Origin: an uncultured Alphaproteobacteria bacterium
GTDB taxonomy: Bacteria; Pseudomonadota; Alphaproteobacteria; Methylaequorales; Methylaequoraceae
NCBI GenBank assembly: GCA_902567115.1
Contig: CACFLF010000005.1
Span: forward strand, 1 to 33,224
DNA length: 33,224 nucleotides
Reading direction: 5' to 3'
The notes below the pieces were generated by a model. That model searched no databases, was not told where the DNA came from, and saw nothing but the letters and a program-made list of their open reading frames with translations. Position 1 is the stretch's first letter. Each line of letters starts with the position of its first letter. Below are positions 5,910 to 33,224 of this stretch, piece by piece. Position numbers and translations under genes: made by a program.

Positions 5910-6655
5910 TGGGAAGAATTAAACTTACAATTGAGTATGATGGTAGTGAATACGTAGGTTGGCAAAAACAACAAAATGGTAGATCCATTCAAGAAGAAAT
6001 AGAAATTTGTCTAGAAAAACTATTTAATTCAAAAATAAAAATTTATGTTTCTGGACGTACTGATGCTGGTGTGCACGCCTTTGGACAGATTGCACATTTT
6101 GACCTAAAAAAATCACATATTGAAACAAAAAAAATATCAAATGCATTAAATTATTTACTTAAAAAATCGAAAAATAAAATAACAATTCTTAAATCTGAAA
6201 AGGTTTCTGCAATCTTTCATTCAAGATTCTCCGTGAAAAAAAAAATTTATTTGTATAAAATTTTAAATAGACCAACGCCATCATTTATTTTAGAAAATAG
6301 AGTATGGCATTTCCCAAAATTATTAAATACTGGCAAAATGAAAGAGGCATCTCATGTATTAATTGGAAAAAAAGACTTTAACGCATTTCGCTCAATAAAT
6401 TGTCAGGCTAAAACCTCAATTCGATCGTTAGAAGCAATAAAAATAAAAAAAAATAAAGACAATATTGAAATTAGAGTTTTTGGTAAATCGTTTTTACATA
6501 ACCAGGTTAGAATTATCATTGGAACGTTGGTGAATGTGGGTATAGGAAAATGGGACGATGAGAAAGTTTCAGAAATTTTGAAATCTAAAGATAGAACGAG
6601 AGCCGGGCCAACGGCGCCATCGTGCGGACTTTATTTGGAAAAAGTTACTTATTAA
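5909..6655 (+). CDS. truA: tRNA pseudouridine(38-40) synthase
   Basis: 'EYDGSEYVGWQKQQNGRSIQ', catalytic 'SGRTDAGVHAFGQIAHFD'. ATG at 5909 overlaps the fmt stop (TGATG); the tracked start at 5903 is TTG. Confidence 0.95.
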   Translation: MGRIKLTIEYDGSEYVGWQKQQNGRSIQEEIEICLEKLFNSKIKIYVSGRTDAGVHAFGQIAHFDLKKSHIETKKISNALNYLLKKSKNKITILKSEKVSAIFHSRFSVKKKIYLYKILNRPTPSFILENRVWHFPKLLNTGKMKEASHVLIGKKDFNAFRSINCQAKTSIRSLEAIKIKKNKDNIEIRVFGKSFLHNQVRIIIGTLVNVGIGKWDDEKVSEILKSKDRTRAGPTAPSCGLYLEKVTY

Positions 6656-28455: not shown

Positions 28456-29733
28456 GTGAAAATAATGAGATCAATTTATTTTTTATATATATTTTTAATT
28501 TATTTTTGTTTTGGCTATTTTACATTAGAAGCAAGGGAACTTTCTATTAAACAAATTGAAGAAAGGAAACAAGCTGATTTAGAGAGACTTAAAGAAAGAG
28601 AGAAAAGAGGAAACAAAAAATTTTCAAAAGAAATAACATTGTCAACCAAACTCATCTTTTTGAGTATGGAAAGAAAAACTCCTGCGGTACTCTCAAATCT
28701 TGATCCTATTCTTGATGACGAGGGTTTTTATGGAGTAAAGCTTGCAATTGAGGATAATTTAACAACTGGAAGGTTCGTTGGTCACGACTATAAAGTAGAG
28801 TTTCATAGAGTCTTACTTAACGAAAATTTACAAAGTGAATTTCAAAAATTATTAAACCAAGGAAATAAATTTTTTATTGTTGATTTAAATGAAAAAGAAT
28901 TGAGAAGTCTGTTTGAAACATCCAATTCGGAAGAAATTGTCATCTTTAATGTTAGATCGAAAGCAGATTCTTTAAGGAATGAGAATTGTAAAAAAAATCT
29001 ACTACATGTCCCACCAAGTTACTCGATGCTCTCTGATGCTTTAACACAATATCTTGTAAAAAAAAAATGGAATAAATGGTTTTTAGTCACTGGACCGGAT
29101 GAAAATGATAGAAAATATGCAGATGCTCTAAAAAAATCAGCAAAAAAATTTAACATTAAAATTAAAAAAGAAAAAGTTTGGGACTTTTCAGCAGATTTGA
29201 GACGTACAGCAGGTAAAGAAGTACCAATTTTTACAAAAGGAGAAAAATATGATGTTTTGGTGGTTGCAGACGAAAAAGGTGAATTTGGTGAATATTTAAC
29301 ATATAGAACTTGGGATCCACGTCCAGTTGTTGGAACGCAGGGACTTACCCCAACGTCTTGGCATAGAACTCATGAACAATGGGGAGCAACGCAAATGCAA
29401 AACAGATTCAGAAGAGAAAGTGGAAGATGGATGACAGAAGTTGATTACCATGCATGGACTGCAGTTCGGTCAATTGGAGAAGCTATAACAAGAACAAGTA
29501 GCAATGATGTAAAAGATGTAAGAAAATATTTGTTAGGAGAAAAATTTGGTCTTGGGGCATATAAGGGAGTAAAAGTTTCATTCAGGTCATGGAACGGGCA
29601 AATGAGACAGCCAATTTTATTGGCAGCGCCAAGATCAATGGTATCTGTTTCCCCGCAGGAAGGTTATATTCATCCAGATAGTGAATTAGATACTATGGGT
29701 AAAGATCAACCTGAATCTACTTGTAAATTTTGA
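28456..29733 (+). CDS. Periplasmic ABC substrate-binding protein of the type linked to PQQ-dependent alcohol dehydrogenases
   Basis: Signal peptide; C-terminal 'DPRPVVGTQGLTPTSWHRTHEQWGATQMQNRF...MTEVDYHAWTAVRSIGEA...SFRSWNGQMRQPILLAAPRSMVSVSPQEGYIHPDSELDTMGKD' typical of this family. Start may be ATG at 28465 (28456 is GTG). Confidence 0.85.
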   Translation: MKIMRSIYFLYIFLIYFCFGYFTLEARELSIKQIEERKQADLERLKEREKRGNKKFSKEITLSTKLIFLSMERKTPAVLSNLDPILDDEGFYGVKLAIEDNLTTGRFVGHDYKVEFHRVLLNENLQSEFQKLLNQGNKFFIVDLNEKELRSLFETSNSEEIVIFNVRSKADSLRNENCKKNLLHVPPSYSMLSDALTQYLVKKKWNKWFLVTGPDENDRKYADALKKSAKKFNIKIKKEKVWDFSADLRRTAGKEVPIFTKGEKYDVLVVADEKGEFGEYLTYRTWDPRPVVGTQGLTPTSWHRTHEQWGATQMQNRFRRESGRWMTEVDYHAWTAVRSIGEAITRTSSNDVKDVRKYLLGEKFGLGAYKGVKVSFRSWNGQMRQPILLAAPRSMVSVSPQEGYIHPDSELDTMGKDQPESTCKF

Positions 29734-29754: not shown

Positions 29755-30720
29755 ATGATGAGATTTATATTTTGTTTATTATTTATTTTTGTTGCAAAAA
29801 CCTCTTTTGCTAACCTTGCTTATATAACAAATGAAAAAGACAATACTGTAAGCGTTATTGATATAAAAAAAAATAAAGTAATTAATACAGTCGAAGTTGG
29901 TCAAAGACCAAGAGGCATAATCATGTCCAAGGATGGAAAGCTTGTGCTAATTTGTGCATCCGATGATGACAGAGTCGAAGTGCGTGAAGCTGAAACACTT
30001 AAATTAAAATATTATTTACCCTCTGGCCCTGACCCTGAGTTATTCATTTTGTCACCTGATGACGAAACCCTCTACATAGCTAACGAAGATGACGCAATGG
30101 TGACTGTTGTAGATATGAATGACAAAATGATCATTGACGATATACCGGTTGGTGTAGAACCAGAAGGAATGGGCTTAACAAATGATGGCAAAGTTTTAGT
30201 GAACACCTCTGAGACTACAAATATGGCACATTTCATCGATACAAGTACTTTAGATATTCTAGAGAATGTTTTAGTTGATGCAAGACCAAGAGTAGCTATG
30301 TTTACCCCAAATGATAAAGAGGTTTGGGTGTCTGCTGAAATTGGAGGCACTGTCAAAGTTATTAACCCATCAACGAAAGAAGTTACCCACACAATAGGAT
30401 TCGAAATTCCAGGAGTTAATGAAGAGAGTATACAACCTGTTGGCGTCCGTCACACCAACGATGGTAAGTATACTTTCGTTGCATTGGGGCCTGCCAATAG
30501 AATTGCAGTTATTGATCAAAAAACTAAGGAACTAATTAAATATTTACTCGTTGGTCAAAGAGTTTGGCAACTAGCCTTTACTCCAGATCAGAAAACACTA
30601 CTCACTACCAATGGTGTGAGTAATGATGTTTCTATAATTGATGTGGAGAAACTAAAGGTAAAAAAATCTGTCAAAGTTGGTCGTTTTCCCTGGGGTGTGG
30701 TAATAAGTCCTGAGTCCTAG
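29755..30720 (+). CDS. Exported YVTN-type beta-propeller protein (PQQ-associated family)
   Basis: Signal peptide; repeated 'AYITNEKDNTVSVIDIKKNKVINTVEVGQRPRGIIMSKDGK'-type blades across the ORF. Confidence 0.9.
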   Translation: MMRFIFCLLFIFVAKTSFANLAYITNEKDNTVSVIDIKKNKVINTVEVGQRPRGIIMSKDGKLVLICASDDDRVEVREAETLKLKYYLPSGPDPELFILSPDDETLYIANEDDAMVTVVDMNDKMIIDDIPVGVEPEGMGLTNDGKVLVNTSETTNMAHFIDTSTLDILENVLVDARPRVAMFTPNDKEVWVSAEIGGTVKVINPSTKEVTHTIGFEIPGVNEESIQPVGVRHTNDGKYTFVALGPANRIAVIDQKTKELIKYLLVGQRVWQLAFTPDQKTLLTTNGVSNDVSIIDVEKLKVKKSVKVGRFPWGVVISPES

Positions 30721-30746: not shown

Positions 30747-31478
30747 ATGAGTACTGCACTTCAAATCAAAAATGTTTCGCACACCTTTGGAGAATTTAAA
30801 GCACTTAATAATGTTAGTATCAAAATAGATCCAGGAGATTTTACAGTTCTATTGGGCCTTAATGGAGCCGGAAAAACTACACTTTACTCACTAATAACAA
30901 GACTATACAACAATAATTCTGGCTCTATAAAAATTCATAATTTTGATGTTAGAGAAGAATCTTCAGATGCTCTCAAAAATATTGGAGTAGTTTTTCAACA
31001 ACCAACTCTTGATTTGGATCTTAGTGTCGAAGAAAATTTACATTACCATTCGTCCTTGCATGGATTAAGTTTCGCTGATGCTAAAGAAAGAATTGAAGAA
31101 GAAATTCGGAGAATAGATTTAACTGAAAAATTAAAAAATAAAGTACGTTCTCTTTCGGGAGGTCAACGGAGACGAGTTGAAATCGCACGATCGCTTCTCC
31201 ATAAACCAAAATTACTACTTCTAGACGAACCAACAGTTGGATTAGATATTGGATCAAGGCAAATGATTCTTAAACATGTAAAATCACTTTGTAAAAAAGG
31301 AGATCTAGCAGTTTTATGGGCAACACACTTAATTGATGAAATTGACAAAGGTGAAAAAGTTGTAATTATTCATAAAGGAGAAATAGTTGAATCGGGTGAT
31401 GTATTAAAAATAGTAAAAAAAACGAAACAAAAAAATATCAGAGATGCCTTCAATAAGCTTGTTGGGGTGAAAGTATGA
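30747..31478 (+). CDS. ABC transporter ATP-binding protein (PQQ-associated)
   Basis: Walker A 'GLNGAGKTTLYSL', signature 'LSGGQRRRVEIARSLLHKPKLLLLDEPTVGLD'. Confidence 0.96.
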   Translation: MSTALQIKNVSHTFGEFKALNNVSIKIDPGDFTVLLGLNGAGKTTLYSLITRLYNNNSGSIKIHNFDVREESSDALKNIGVVFQQPTLDLDLSVEENLHYHSSLHGLSFADAKERIEEEIRRIDLTEKLKNKVRSLSGGQRRRVEIARSLLHKPKLLLLDEPTVGLDIGSRQMILKHVKSLCKKGDLAVLWATHLIDEIDKGEKVVIIHKGEIVESGDVLKIVKKTKQKNIRDAFNKLVGVKV

Positions 31479-32278
31479 AACCGATTATATATTTGAGATG
31501 TTTTAAAGGAATTGTATTAAGAGAGGCATTAAGATTCTTTCACCAAAAAGAACGATTTTTTTCGGCACTCGTTAGACCTTTAGTTTGGTTAGGAATATTT
31601 GCTGCAGGTTTCAGGTCTGTCCTTGGTGTGGCAATAATACCTCCTTATGAAACTTATATTCCCTATGAGGTTTATATTGCCCCTGGTCTTATTGCAATGA
31701 TTCAATTGTTCAATGGGATGCAAAGCTCATTATCCATGGTTTATGACAGAGAAATGGGGAGTATGAAAACGATGTTAGTTAGTCCCATTCCAAGGTGGTT
31801 TTTGCTAATATCGAAATTACTTGCTGGTGTATTTGTTTCTATACTTCAAGTTTATGCTTTTCTAATAATTGCGTCTTTCTGGGAGATTATACCTCCGATT
31901 ACAGGTTATTTTACAATTTTACCAGCGTTGATATTTACTGGATTAATGTTAGGCTCGTTAGGTATGTTTCTTTCCTCGGCTATAAAACAATTAGAAAATT
32001 TTGCTGGGGTTATGAATTTTGTTATTTTTCCTATGTTTTTTGCCTCGTCAGCATTGTATCCACTTTGGAAGATCGAAGAAACTAGTGAATGGCTTTATTA
32101 CGTATGTTTCTATAATCCATTTACATATGCAGTTGAATCTATAAGATTTTCTATGTATTCTCAATTTAATTTTGAGTATACTGCAGGTATAGTAATTTTT
32201 ACTGTAATATTTCTTATTCTATCAATTTTGGGATATGATCCTGCAAGAGGCTCTTTACAAAAAAAAGGAGGAAGTTAG
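31475..32278 (+). CDS. ABC-2 type transporter permease (PQQ-associated)
   Basis: Overlaps the ATPase stop; 'YIAPGLIAMIQLFNGMQSSLSMVYDREMGSMKTMLVSPIPRWFLLISKLLAG', 'WLYYVCFYNPFTYAVESIRF'. Confidence 0.92.
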   Translation: MKPIIYLRCFKGIVLREALRFFHQKERFFSALVRPLVWLGIFAAGFRSVLGVAIIPPYETYIPYEVYIAPGLIAMIQLFNGMQSSLSMVYDREMGSMKTMLVSPIPRWFLLISKLLAGVFVSILQVYAFLIIASFWEIIPPITGYFTILPALIFTGLMLGSLGMFLSSAIKQLENFAGVMNFVIFPMFFASSALYPLWKIEETSEWLYYVCFYNPFTYAVESIRFSMYSQFNFEYTAGIVIFTVIFLILSILGYDPARGSLQKKGGS

Positions 32279-32281
32279 TCA

Positions 32282-32701
32282 ATGAATTTTTTAATGATTA
32301 TAATCTTTTTATTTATTCAATTGCCAAGCGAGTCAAATGCAGAGGGTGATTTATCAATTCGGTCAAAAAAGTTAGTCTTAAATTTGGGATCTGACAAAAG
32401 CGACTACGATATGTCACAAAAAATTTTTAATATGGAAACTGGCAAAGCTTATAGATTAGAAATCACAAGTATGGGATTTAAAGAATATGAATTAGAAGCA
32501 GAGGATTTTTTTAGAAATATTTGGATTCGTTCAATTGAAATAGATGGGATTGAGTTGGATGCACCTGTAATTAATGAAATAGAATTTGAGAGAGAGGGTG
32601 AAATTGAAATTAAGTTTGTACCAATTAGGCCTGGAGAATATGATTTTGAAATTGAAAGGTTACAAAGTAAAGGAATGGTTGGTAAATTTATAGTTAAATA
32701 A
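32282..32701 (+). CDS. Small exported acidic protein with cupredoxin-like C-terminal pattern but no Cys/His ligands
   Basis: Signal peptide 'MNFLMIIIFLFIQLPSESNAE'; 'FVPIRPGEYDFEIERLQSKGMVGKFIVK' resembles the cupredoxin 'pGtYefyC..hkGM.G.i.V' end; 3 nt after the permease stop. Confidence 0.7.
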   Translation: MNFLMIIIFLFIQLPSESNAEGDLSIRSKKLVLNLGSDKSDYDMSQKIFNMETGKAYRLEITSMGFKEYELEAEDFFRNIWIRSIEIDGIELDAPVINEIEFEREGEIEIKFVPIRPGEYDFEIERLQSKGMVGKFIVK

Positions 32702-32719: not shown

Positions 32720-33224
32720 ATGATGCAAAAAATAATTTTTAATTTCTTTATTTACTTTACTATTATGCTCACGACAGCCAGTGATTCCTTATCGATCGAA
32801 CTCGATAAAACACCAAAAAAATGGCCGTGCGATCAGGTGTATAATCCTAAATTAAATCTTGGATCAATATGGCAAGGTCCTTCTATAGAGGAATCTTTGA
32901 AAGATTGGTGGAAGTATGATGATGTGATTGAATACGTTAATATATTATCTGAACCGACGTTAAGTGAGGAGAACGGAACAGTCGTCATAGAGGAATTTGC
33001 AAAAAAATATACTTATTTAGGTGTTTTAAAGAAACCTGAACAAAGAGAAAAGTTAATCTTTCTTTTTGCGGGTCTTTATCAAAAAGCTAAGGACAGAAGA
33101 GAAAGACAATATAAGGGGATCATTAAATTTGTTGATAGGCAGGAAAGTCTAAGGAAGGCAATTGGTGAATCGTCAAAGTTAATAAGAAAATATAGAAAAA
33201 ATAAAATGGATAAAAAAAGCAAAA
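32720..33224 (+). CDS. Exported protein of unknown function, 3' end outside window (not in the ORF track)
   Basis: RBS 'AGGGAGAAAAT' then ATG ATG CAA AAA; open to window end: MMQKIIFNFFIYFTIMLTTASDSLSIELDKTPKKWPCDQVYNPKLNLGSIWQGPSIEESLKDWWKYDDVIEYVNILSEPTLSEENGTVVIEEFAKKYTYLGVLKKPEQREKLIFLFAGLYQKAKDRRERQYKG... Confidence 0.85.
   Translation, partial: MMQKIIFNFFIYFTIMLTTASDSLSIELDKTPKKWPCDQVYNPKLNLGSIWQGPSIEESLKDWWKYDDVIEYVNILSEPTLSEENGTVVIEEFAKKYTYLGVLKKPEQREKLIFLFAGLYQKAKDRRERQYKGIIKFVDRQESLRKAIGESSKLIRKYRKNKMDKKSK

Follow-up and report, generated by a model that had tools for sequence, protein, structure and literature searches.

The window analysed here, a stretch of 33,224 nucleotides from an uncultured alphaproteobacterium of the Methylaequoraceae, ends in a Lut/Ped lanthanide ABC-transporter operon, the genes of which all lie on the forward strand. 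Four of them form one operon directly upstream of the gene under study and were assigned to curated TIGR families, each over its cut-off: a substrate-binding protein of a PQQ-linked ABC transporter, PedA1/LutA type (28456–29733; TIGR03863, 481.9 bits, cut-off 413.6), a PQQ-catabolism-associated β-propeller of the PedA2 type (29755–30720; TIGR03866, 486.6 bits, cut-off 287.3), an ABC ATPase of the PedB/LutE type (30747–31478; TIGR03864, 331.1 bits, cut-off 302.25) and an ABC-2 type permease of the PedC/LutF type (31475–32278; TIGR03861, 398.4 bits, cut-off 241.35). The ABC-2 family of the permease is exporter-like, an unusual match for a system that is described as importing lanthanides and that has a substrate-binding protein. 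The fifth gene of the operon (32282–32701) codes for a protein that we call CUPX, a label coined in this analysis, and that is presented below as an exported, copper-free protein of predicted cupredoxin fold.

The next open reading frame (32720–33224), cut by the contig end, codes for an exported protein of about 215 residues, which is full length and conserved in the clusters of relatives. It has no match in Pfam, contains the motif WPC.Q...QVW.GP with two conserved Cys (a further copy lies at 6434–7093 of L033), and recurs right behind the permease in many lut clusters, where it occupies the LutG slot. On this gene order, an identity of CUPX itself with LutG was rejected. LutG homologues have been reported in S. 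meliloti (PMC12628762).

The window stops 523 bases past CUPX, before the pqq and xox genes. In relatives with a complete locus, CUPX is followed by the protein of about 215 residues, pqqB, C, D and E, the divergent xoxJ and xoxG, and xoxF, and in some of them a plastocyanin-like copper protein follows pqqE. The xoxF of these relatives lies about 7–9 kb away and carries WDYDG, the extra Asp of which is a mark of lanthanide-type PQQ dehydrogenases. A XoxF match was not found in the window's own genome (an assembly that is 60% complete), while the gene is present in relatives. The initial annotation had described the setting as a PQQ/lut-like operon, and both the four families upstream and the genes found downstream in complete relatives bear this out.

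For lanthanide-dependent growth to be efficient, Pseudomonas putida needs its PedA1A2BC transporter (PMC6839425) and Methylorubrum extorquens its LutAEF (PMC7391723). The window shares with these systems the four core genes in the same order, with PQQ and xox genes nearby, and differs from the four-gene PedA1A2BC of P. putida KT2440, which has no CUPX-like extra gene (PMC6839425, PMC12997753). In M. extorquens, LutC stands between LutB and LutE, a slot resembling the one that CUPX takes in Paracoccus; the comparison is one of gene slot. A lutC mutant showed a mild growth defect with La3+ (PMC7391723). Among the genomes examined, no Methylobacterium-like lut locus with the LutC gene order was recognised.

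The CUPX gene and its genomic coupling

The CUPX reading frame runs from an ATG at 32282, 3 bases past the permease stop, to a stop codon ending at 32701, and its translation has 139 residues with no Cys and no His, so that the initial annotation was correct in coordinates, sequence and composition. A Shine-Dalgarno-like AGGAGG (32266–32271) is present 10 bases before the ATG, inside the end of the permease gene. By inspection, residues 1–20 (32282–32341) form a putative signal peptide with a hydrophobic, variable N-terminus; cleavage is predicted before E21, where indel-free conservation begins. The mature protein of 119 residues aligns without indels in 20/20 orthologues. It contains 26 Asp/Glu as compared to 17 Lys/Arg and has a pI of 4.6, in line with the median of 4.8 for CUPX orthologues versus 9.2 for the copper-type paralogues discussed below.

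Most genomes that belong to the same genus or family contain homologues with 65–100% identity, and comparison with 11 relatives gave a pN/pS of 0.04–0.18, indicating strong purifying selection; for both reasons CUPX is regarded as a selected protein-coding gene. The loss of copper ligands could also be read as the mark of a decaying, functionless copy, but this reading is contradicted by the pN/pS values, by conservation across the phylum and by operon linkage, and we give it practically no weight. Searches of PHROGs and PADLOC returned no match. Fusion of CUPX to other domains was considered and rejected, as the long open frames concerned proved to be extended reading frames or unrelated proteins.

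The distribution of CUPX was investigated in a sample of 398 Pseudomonadota genomes, in which a match with E below 1e-25 was counted as strong. CUPX was present in 31/398 genomes and PedC/LutF (TIGR03861) in 71/398; all 31 CUPX genomes also carry PedC/LutF, and in 27 of them no more than 5 kb separate CUPX from the permease gene. A strong CUPX match is missing from 40 of the 71 PedC-bearing genomes, and CUPX is therefore not essential to the transporter. A PQQ alcohol dehydrogenase is present in 29/30 CUPX genomes, and the extra Asp (WD[YF]DG) was found in 27 of 28 readable dehydrogenases of these genomes. The lut/PQQ setting proposed from the window thus extends across the phylum, tied to lanthanide-type alcohol dehydrogenases.

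The same operon was found on plasmids of Sinorhizobium, Rhizobium, Phyllobacterium, Paracoccus, Phaeobacter, Pseudosulfitobacter, Thioclava and Shinella, where the CUPX product, whenever the records are annotated, is a “hypothetical protein”. The position of CUPX in the operon is variable: it follows the permease in the window's family, mostly lies between the propeller and the ATPase in Rhizobiales and Rhodobacterales, and adjoins the substrate-binding protein in some genomes, so that no single partner is obvious from gene order. Tandem CUPX copies within one cluster were observed in two cases (L140, 9998–11108; L159, 4419–5345). On a plasmid of Paracoccus alcaliphilus the order is substrate-binding protein, propeller, CUPX, PepSY protein, ATPase, permease and LutG-like protein, the short acidic PepSY protein (L156, 5373–5624) being located between CUPX and the ATPase.

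These data also bear on the partner of CUPX. The initial annotation had suggested a partner for the dehydrogenase, and CUPX could accordingly be an assembly or maturation factor that helps PQQ or Ln3+ loading of XoxF/PedH instead of serving the transporter. In the window's family CUPX shares its locus with pqqBCDE and xoxFGJ, which would fit such a role. So would the copy on a Roseomonas marmotae plasmid (L151), which neighbours an ABC transporter of another kind, with pqqBC and genes for formaldehyde/formate oxidation close by and no PedABC set in the stretch examined. In the phylum sample, however, CUPX co-occurs with PedC and is mostly no more than 5 kb away from it, which makes the maturation role distinctly unlikely. 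A direct partnership with the enzyme is thus less probable than a partnership with the transporter module, given that the permease gene is at most 5 kb away from 27/31 copies.

Predicted fold and the vacated copper site

On its own, CUPX matches the Pfam family Cupredoxin_1 (PF13473) with 14.9 bits (E = 0.027), below the gathering cut-off of 27 bits, whereas 12 of 25 CUPX relatives match it at E ≤ 0.1, the best with E = 3.5e-8. Weak Pfam matches to EhbP and DUF3244, also under cut-off, were taken as chance, and a sequence search of the PDB gave only weak, uninformative matches to filamin and to a plastocyanin tail. A sequence profile also recovers paralogues with the full His-Cys-His-Met ligand set. 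AlphaFold2 modelling from the alignment of the mature protein produced one confident model out of five (pLDDT 75, pTM 0.70) and four poor ones; with the signal peptide kept the pLDDT was 50, and the mature-only model was used instead. Searched against the PDB with Foldseek, the mature model gave 457 matches at E ≤ 0.001, of which the best 50 all have the cupredoxin fold; among the matches listed are the Cupredoxin_1 structure 4hcf, copper nitrite reductase, AcoP and laccases. With the weaker full-length model, plastocyanin and Cupredoxin_1 ranked first. Because the predicted structure matches and homology to ligand-bearing paralogues points the same way, a cupredoxin fold (Greek-key β-sandwich) is well supported for CUPX as a structural prediction, which upholds the cupredoxin pattern that the initial annotation had seen in the C-terminal part.

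With the plastocyanin-type blue copper proteins CUPX shares the exported β-sandwich, a predicted fold matching 4hcf, plastocyanin and AcoP, and a C-terminal Gx(Y/F)...GMxGxxxV. It differs from them in its ligands, as neither the first ligand His nor the ligand Cys is present, the loop of the second ligand His is shortened, and about half of the proteins retain the Met position. The homologous cupredoxin encoded in the same genome (35% identity over the domain) retains all four ligand-type residues, belongs to a separate clade and is unlinked to the lut operon. This paralogue (G000:C10:24579–25043; L002, 1489–1971) lies beside a photolyase-like gene, occurs in many genomes of the family and is possibly a real copper cupredoxin of unassigned role.

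Orthologues (at least 95 bits) and copper-type paralogues (below 66 bits) were compared in one profile alignment. At position 69 (32486–32488), that of the first ligand His, all 15 non-redundant copper-type paralogues have His, which occurs in none of the 48 non-redundant orthologues: the window protein has Tyr, and the orthologues have Y (21), L (15), C (6), F (3), I (2) or W (1). The position of the ligand Cys is taken by Ile124 in the window (32651–32653) and by Ile or Val in 33/48 orthologues, and a Cys occurs there solely alongside Cys69. The two Cys were found together in 7/70 orthologues (6/48 non-redundant; L180, L181, L127, L187, L192, L262 and L264) and singly in none. If the two positions varied independently, a perfect match among 48 would be expected once in C(48,6) cases, about 1e-7, although kinship makes the true figure less extreme. 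Positions 69 and 124 are those which we take to be the two that would face copper, and their covariation supports both the register of the alignment and a site that is vacated and packed. In the alignment, the vacated pair appears as hydrophobic (Tyr/Leu with Ile/Val) or, in some lineages, as Cys-Cys, where it is probably a disulfide. In a maximum-likelihood tree, ligand-less and ligand-bearing proteins are parted by one branch (support 93/90), which is consistent with a single change, the direction of which we infer.

Judged from the aligned sequences, the type-1 copper site is lost across the CUPX family, and with the first ligand His and the ligand Cys gone CUPX cannot be a blue-copper electron carrier. 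This agrees with the repurposed fold without a classical copper site that had been suggested by the initial annotation. The remaining redox readings, namely electron transfer through a non-classical copper site or dithiol/disulfide chemistry of the Cys pair, could draw on the fold, on Cys69-Cys124 in some orthologues and on an operon shared with a quinoprotein. They are contradicted in the window, where the protein has neither thiol nor imidazole, and are very improbable for the family, in which no orthologue has His at position 69 and the window's own family keeps separate plastocyanin-like and His-Cys-His-Met copper proteins for electron transfer.

Conserved carboxylates

The abundance of Asp and Glu in CUPX had been proposed as a hard-cation feature, and the conservation of these residues was therefore followed in the 48 non-redundant orthologues. 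At only four of the 26 acidic positions of mature CUPX is a carboxylate kept in 92% or more of these orthologues: Glu68 (32483–32485; 44/48, 92%), Glu91 (32552–32554; 47/48, 98%), and Glu101 and Glu103 of an E-F-D/E motif (32582–32590; each 47/48, 98%). D75 is acidic in 75% of the orthologues and the remaining residues less often. None of the 15 copper-type paralogues has an acidic residue at position 68 or 103, while 13 of them have one at 101, so that E101 may be structural. In orthologue L264 part of this pattern is gone, although the genomic context is kept. The proposal accordingly stands in part: the four carboxylates are retained, whereas the other 22 acidic residues, including most of the strings quoted by the initial annotation, are scattered and poorly conserved, which argues against acidity as a function in itself. 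At the level of sequence, the four conserved positions leave a specific site or interface possible.

CUPX might then be a dedicated hard-cation protein, in which the four carboxylates would make up a specific site for Ln3+ (or Ca2+), with the cupredoxin scaffold serving as a periplasmic lanthanide chaperone, comparable in role to LutD or lanmodulin. The near-invariance of E91, E101 and D/E103 and the strong conservation of E68, the absence of acidic residues at 68 and 103 in copper-type paralogues, the acidic pI and the lanthanide-type dehydrogenases in the same genomes speak for this reading. On the other hand, most acidic residues are not conserved, E101 is shared with the copper-type paralogues, and L264 has lost part of the pattern in an unchanged context. 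CUPX is, like the periplasmic lanthanide-binding proteins LutD, LanPepSY and lanmodulin, exported and linked to lanthanides, but its fold is different, and no EF-hand or PepSY domain was found by Pfam in CUPX and its relatives; in Paracoccus alcaliphilus the adjoining PepSY protein is a separate gene. Taken together, we consider the chaperone role an unlikely, if serious, alternative.

Proposed role in the lanthanide module

With moderate confidence, we favour a role for CUPX in the periplasm, as a redox-inactive accessory to the Lut/Ped lanthanide module that serves PQQ-dependent alcohol dehydrogenases of the XoxF/PedH type; it is probably a helper of the lanthanide-uptake system and not an electron carrier. 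By computation, CUPX is a real exported protein with a predicted fold, lost copper ligands, a Cys pair that covaries in the family, and conserved carboxylates, and its gene is coupled in genomes to the transporter and to lanthanide-type dehydrogenases. Because it is exported, is without type-1 copper, follows the lanthanide transporter and the lanthanide-type dehydrogenases from genome to genome and has a few conserved carboxylates, we propose for it a docking or relay function at the transporter's periplasmic face, where it may touch the β-propeller and/or the substrate-binding protein. E68, E91, E101 and D/E103 would form its working surface, either as a charged interface or as a weak hard-cation (Ln3+/Ca2+) hand-over site. 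Contact with the transporter, the periplasmic partner and any metal binding or hand-over of a cation are what we infer from these data.

A more specific arrangement, which we regard as a long shot, would have CUPX pack on the adjacent 7-bladed β-propeller, the two proteins together forming a split counterpart of the propeller-cupredoxin architecture seen in nitrous-oxide reductase, with the conserved interface carboxylates binding Ln3+. In this respect, the β-propeller family TIGR03866 is related in sequence to lactonase-type nitrous-oxide reductase. If this arrangement were true, CUPX would be the first lanthanide-handling cupredoxin.

Both the fold and the operon are known, while a copper-free cupredoxin in a Lut/Ped operon appears undescribed, LutC having been compared by gene slot; in the open full-text literature, subscription papers being mostly outside the search, no cupredoxin was found described in lut or ped clusters. 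For the favoured accessory role, E68, E91, E101, D/E103 and the vacated 69/124 site represent defined residues that are open to direct testing. CUPX offers a clear case of a blue-copper fold that is copper-free, under strong selection and, on the reading favoured here, in a non-redox role. The route that lanthanides take through the periplasm to XoxF/PedH has yet to be worked out, and CUPX adds to the lanthanide gene set a component that is unannotated and widely conserved.
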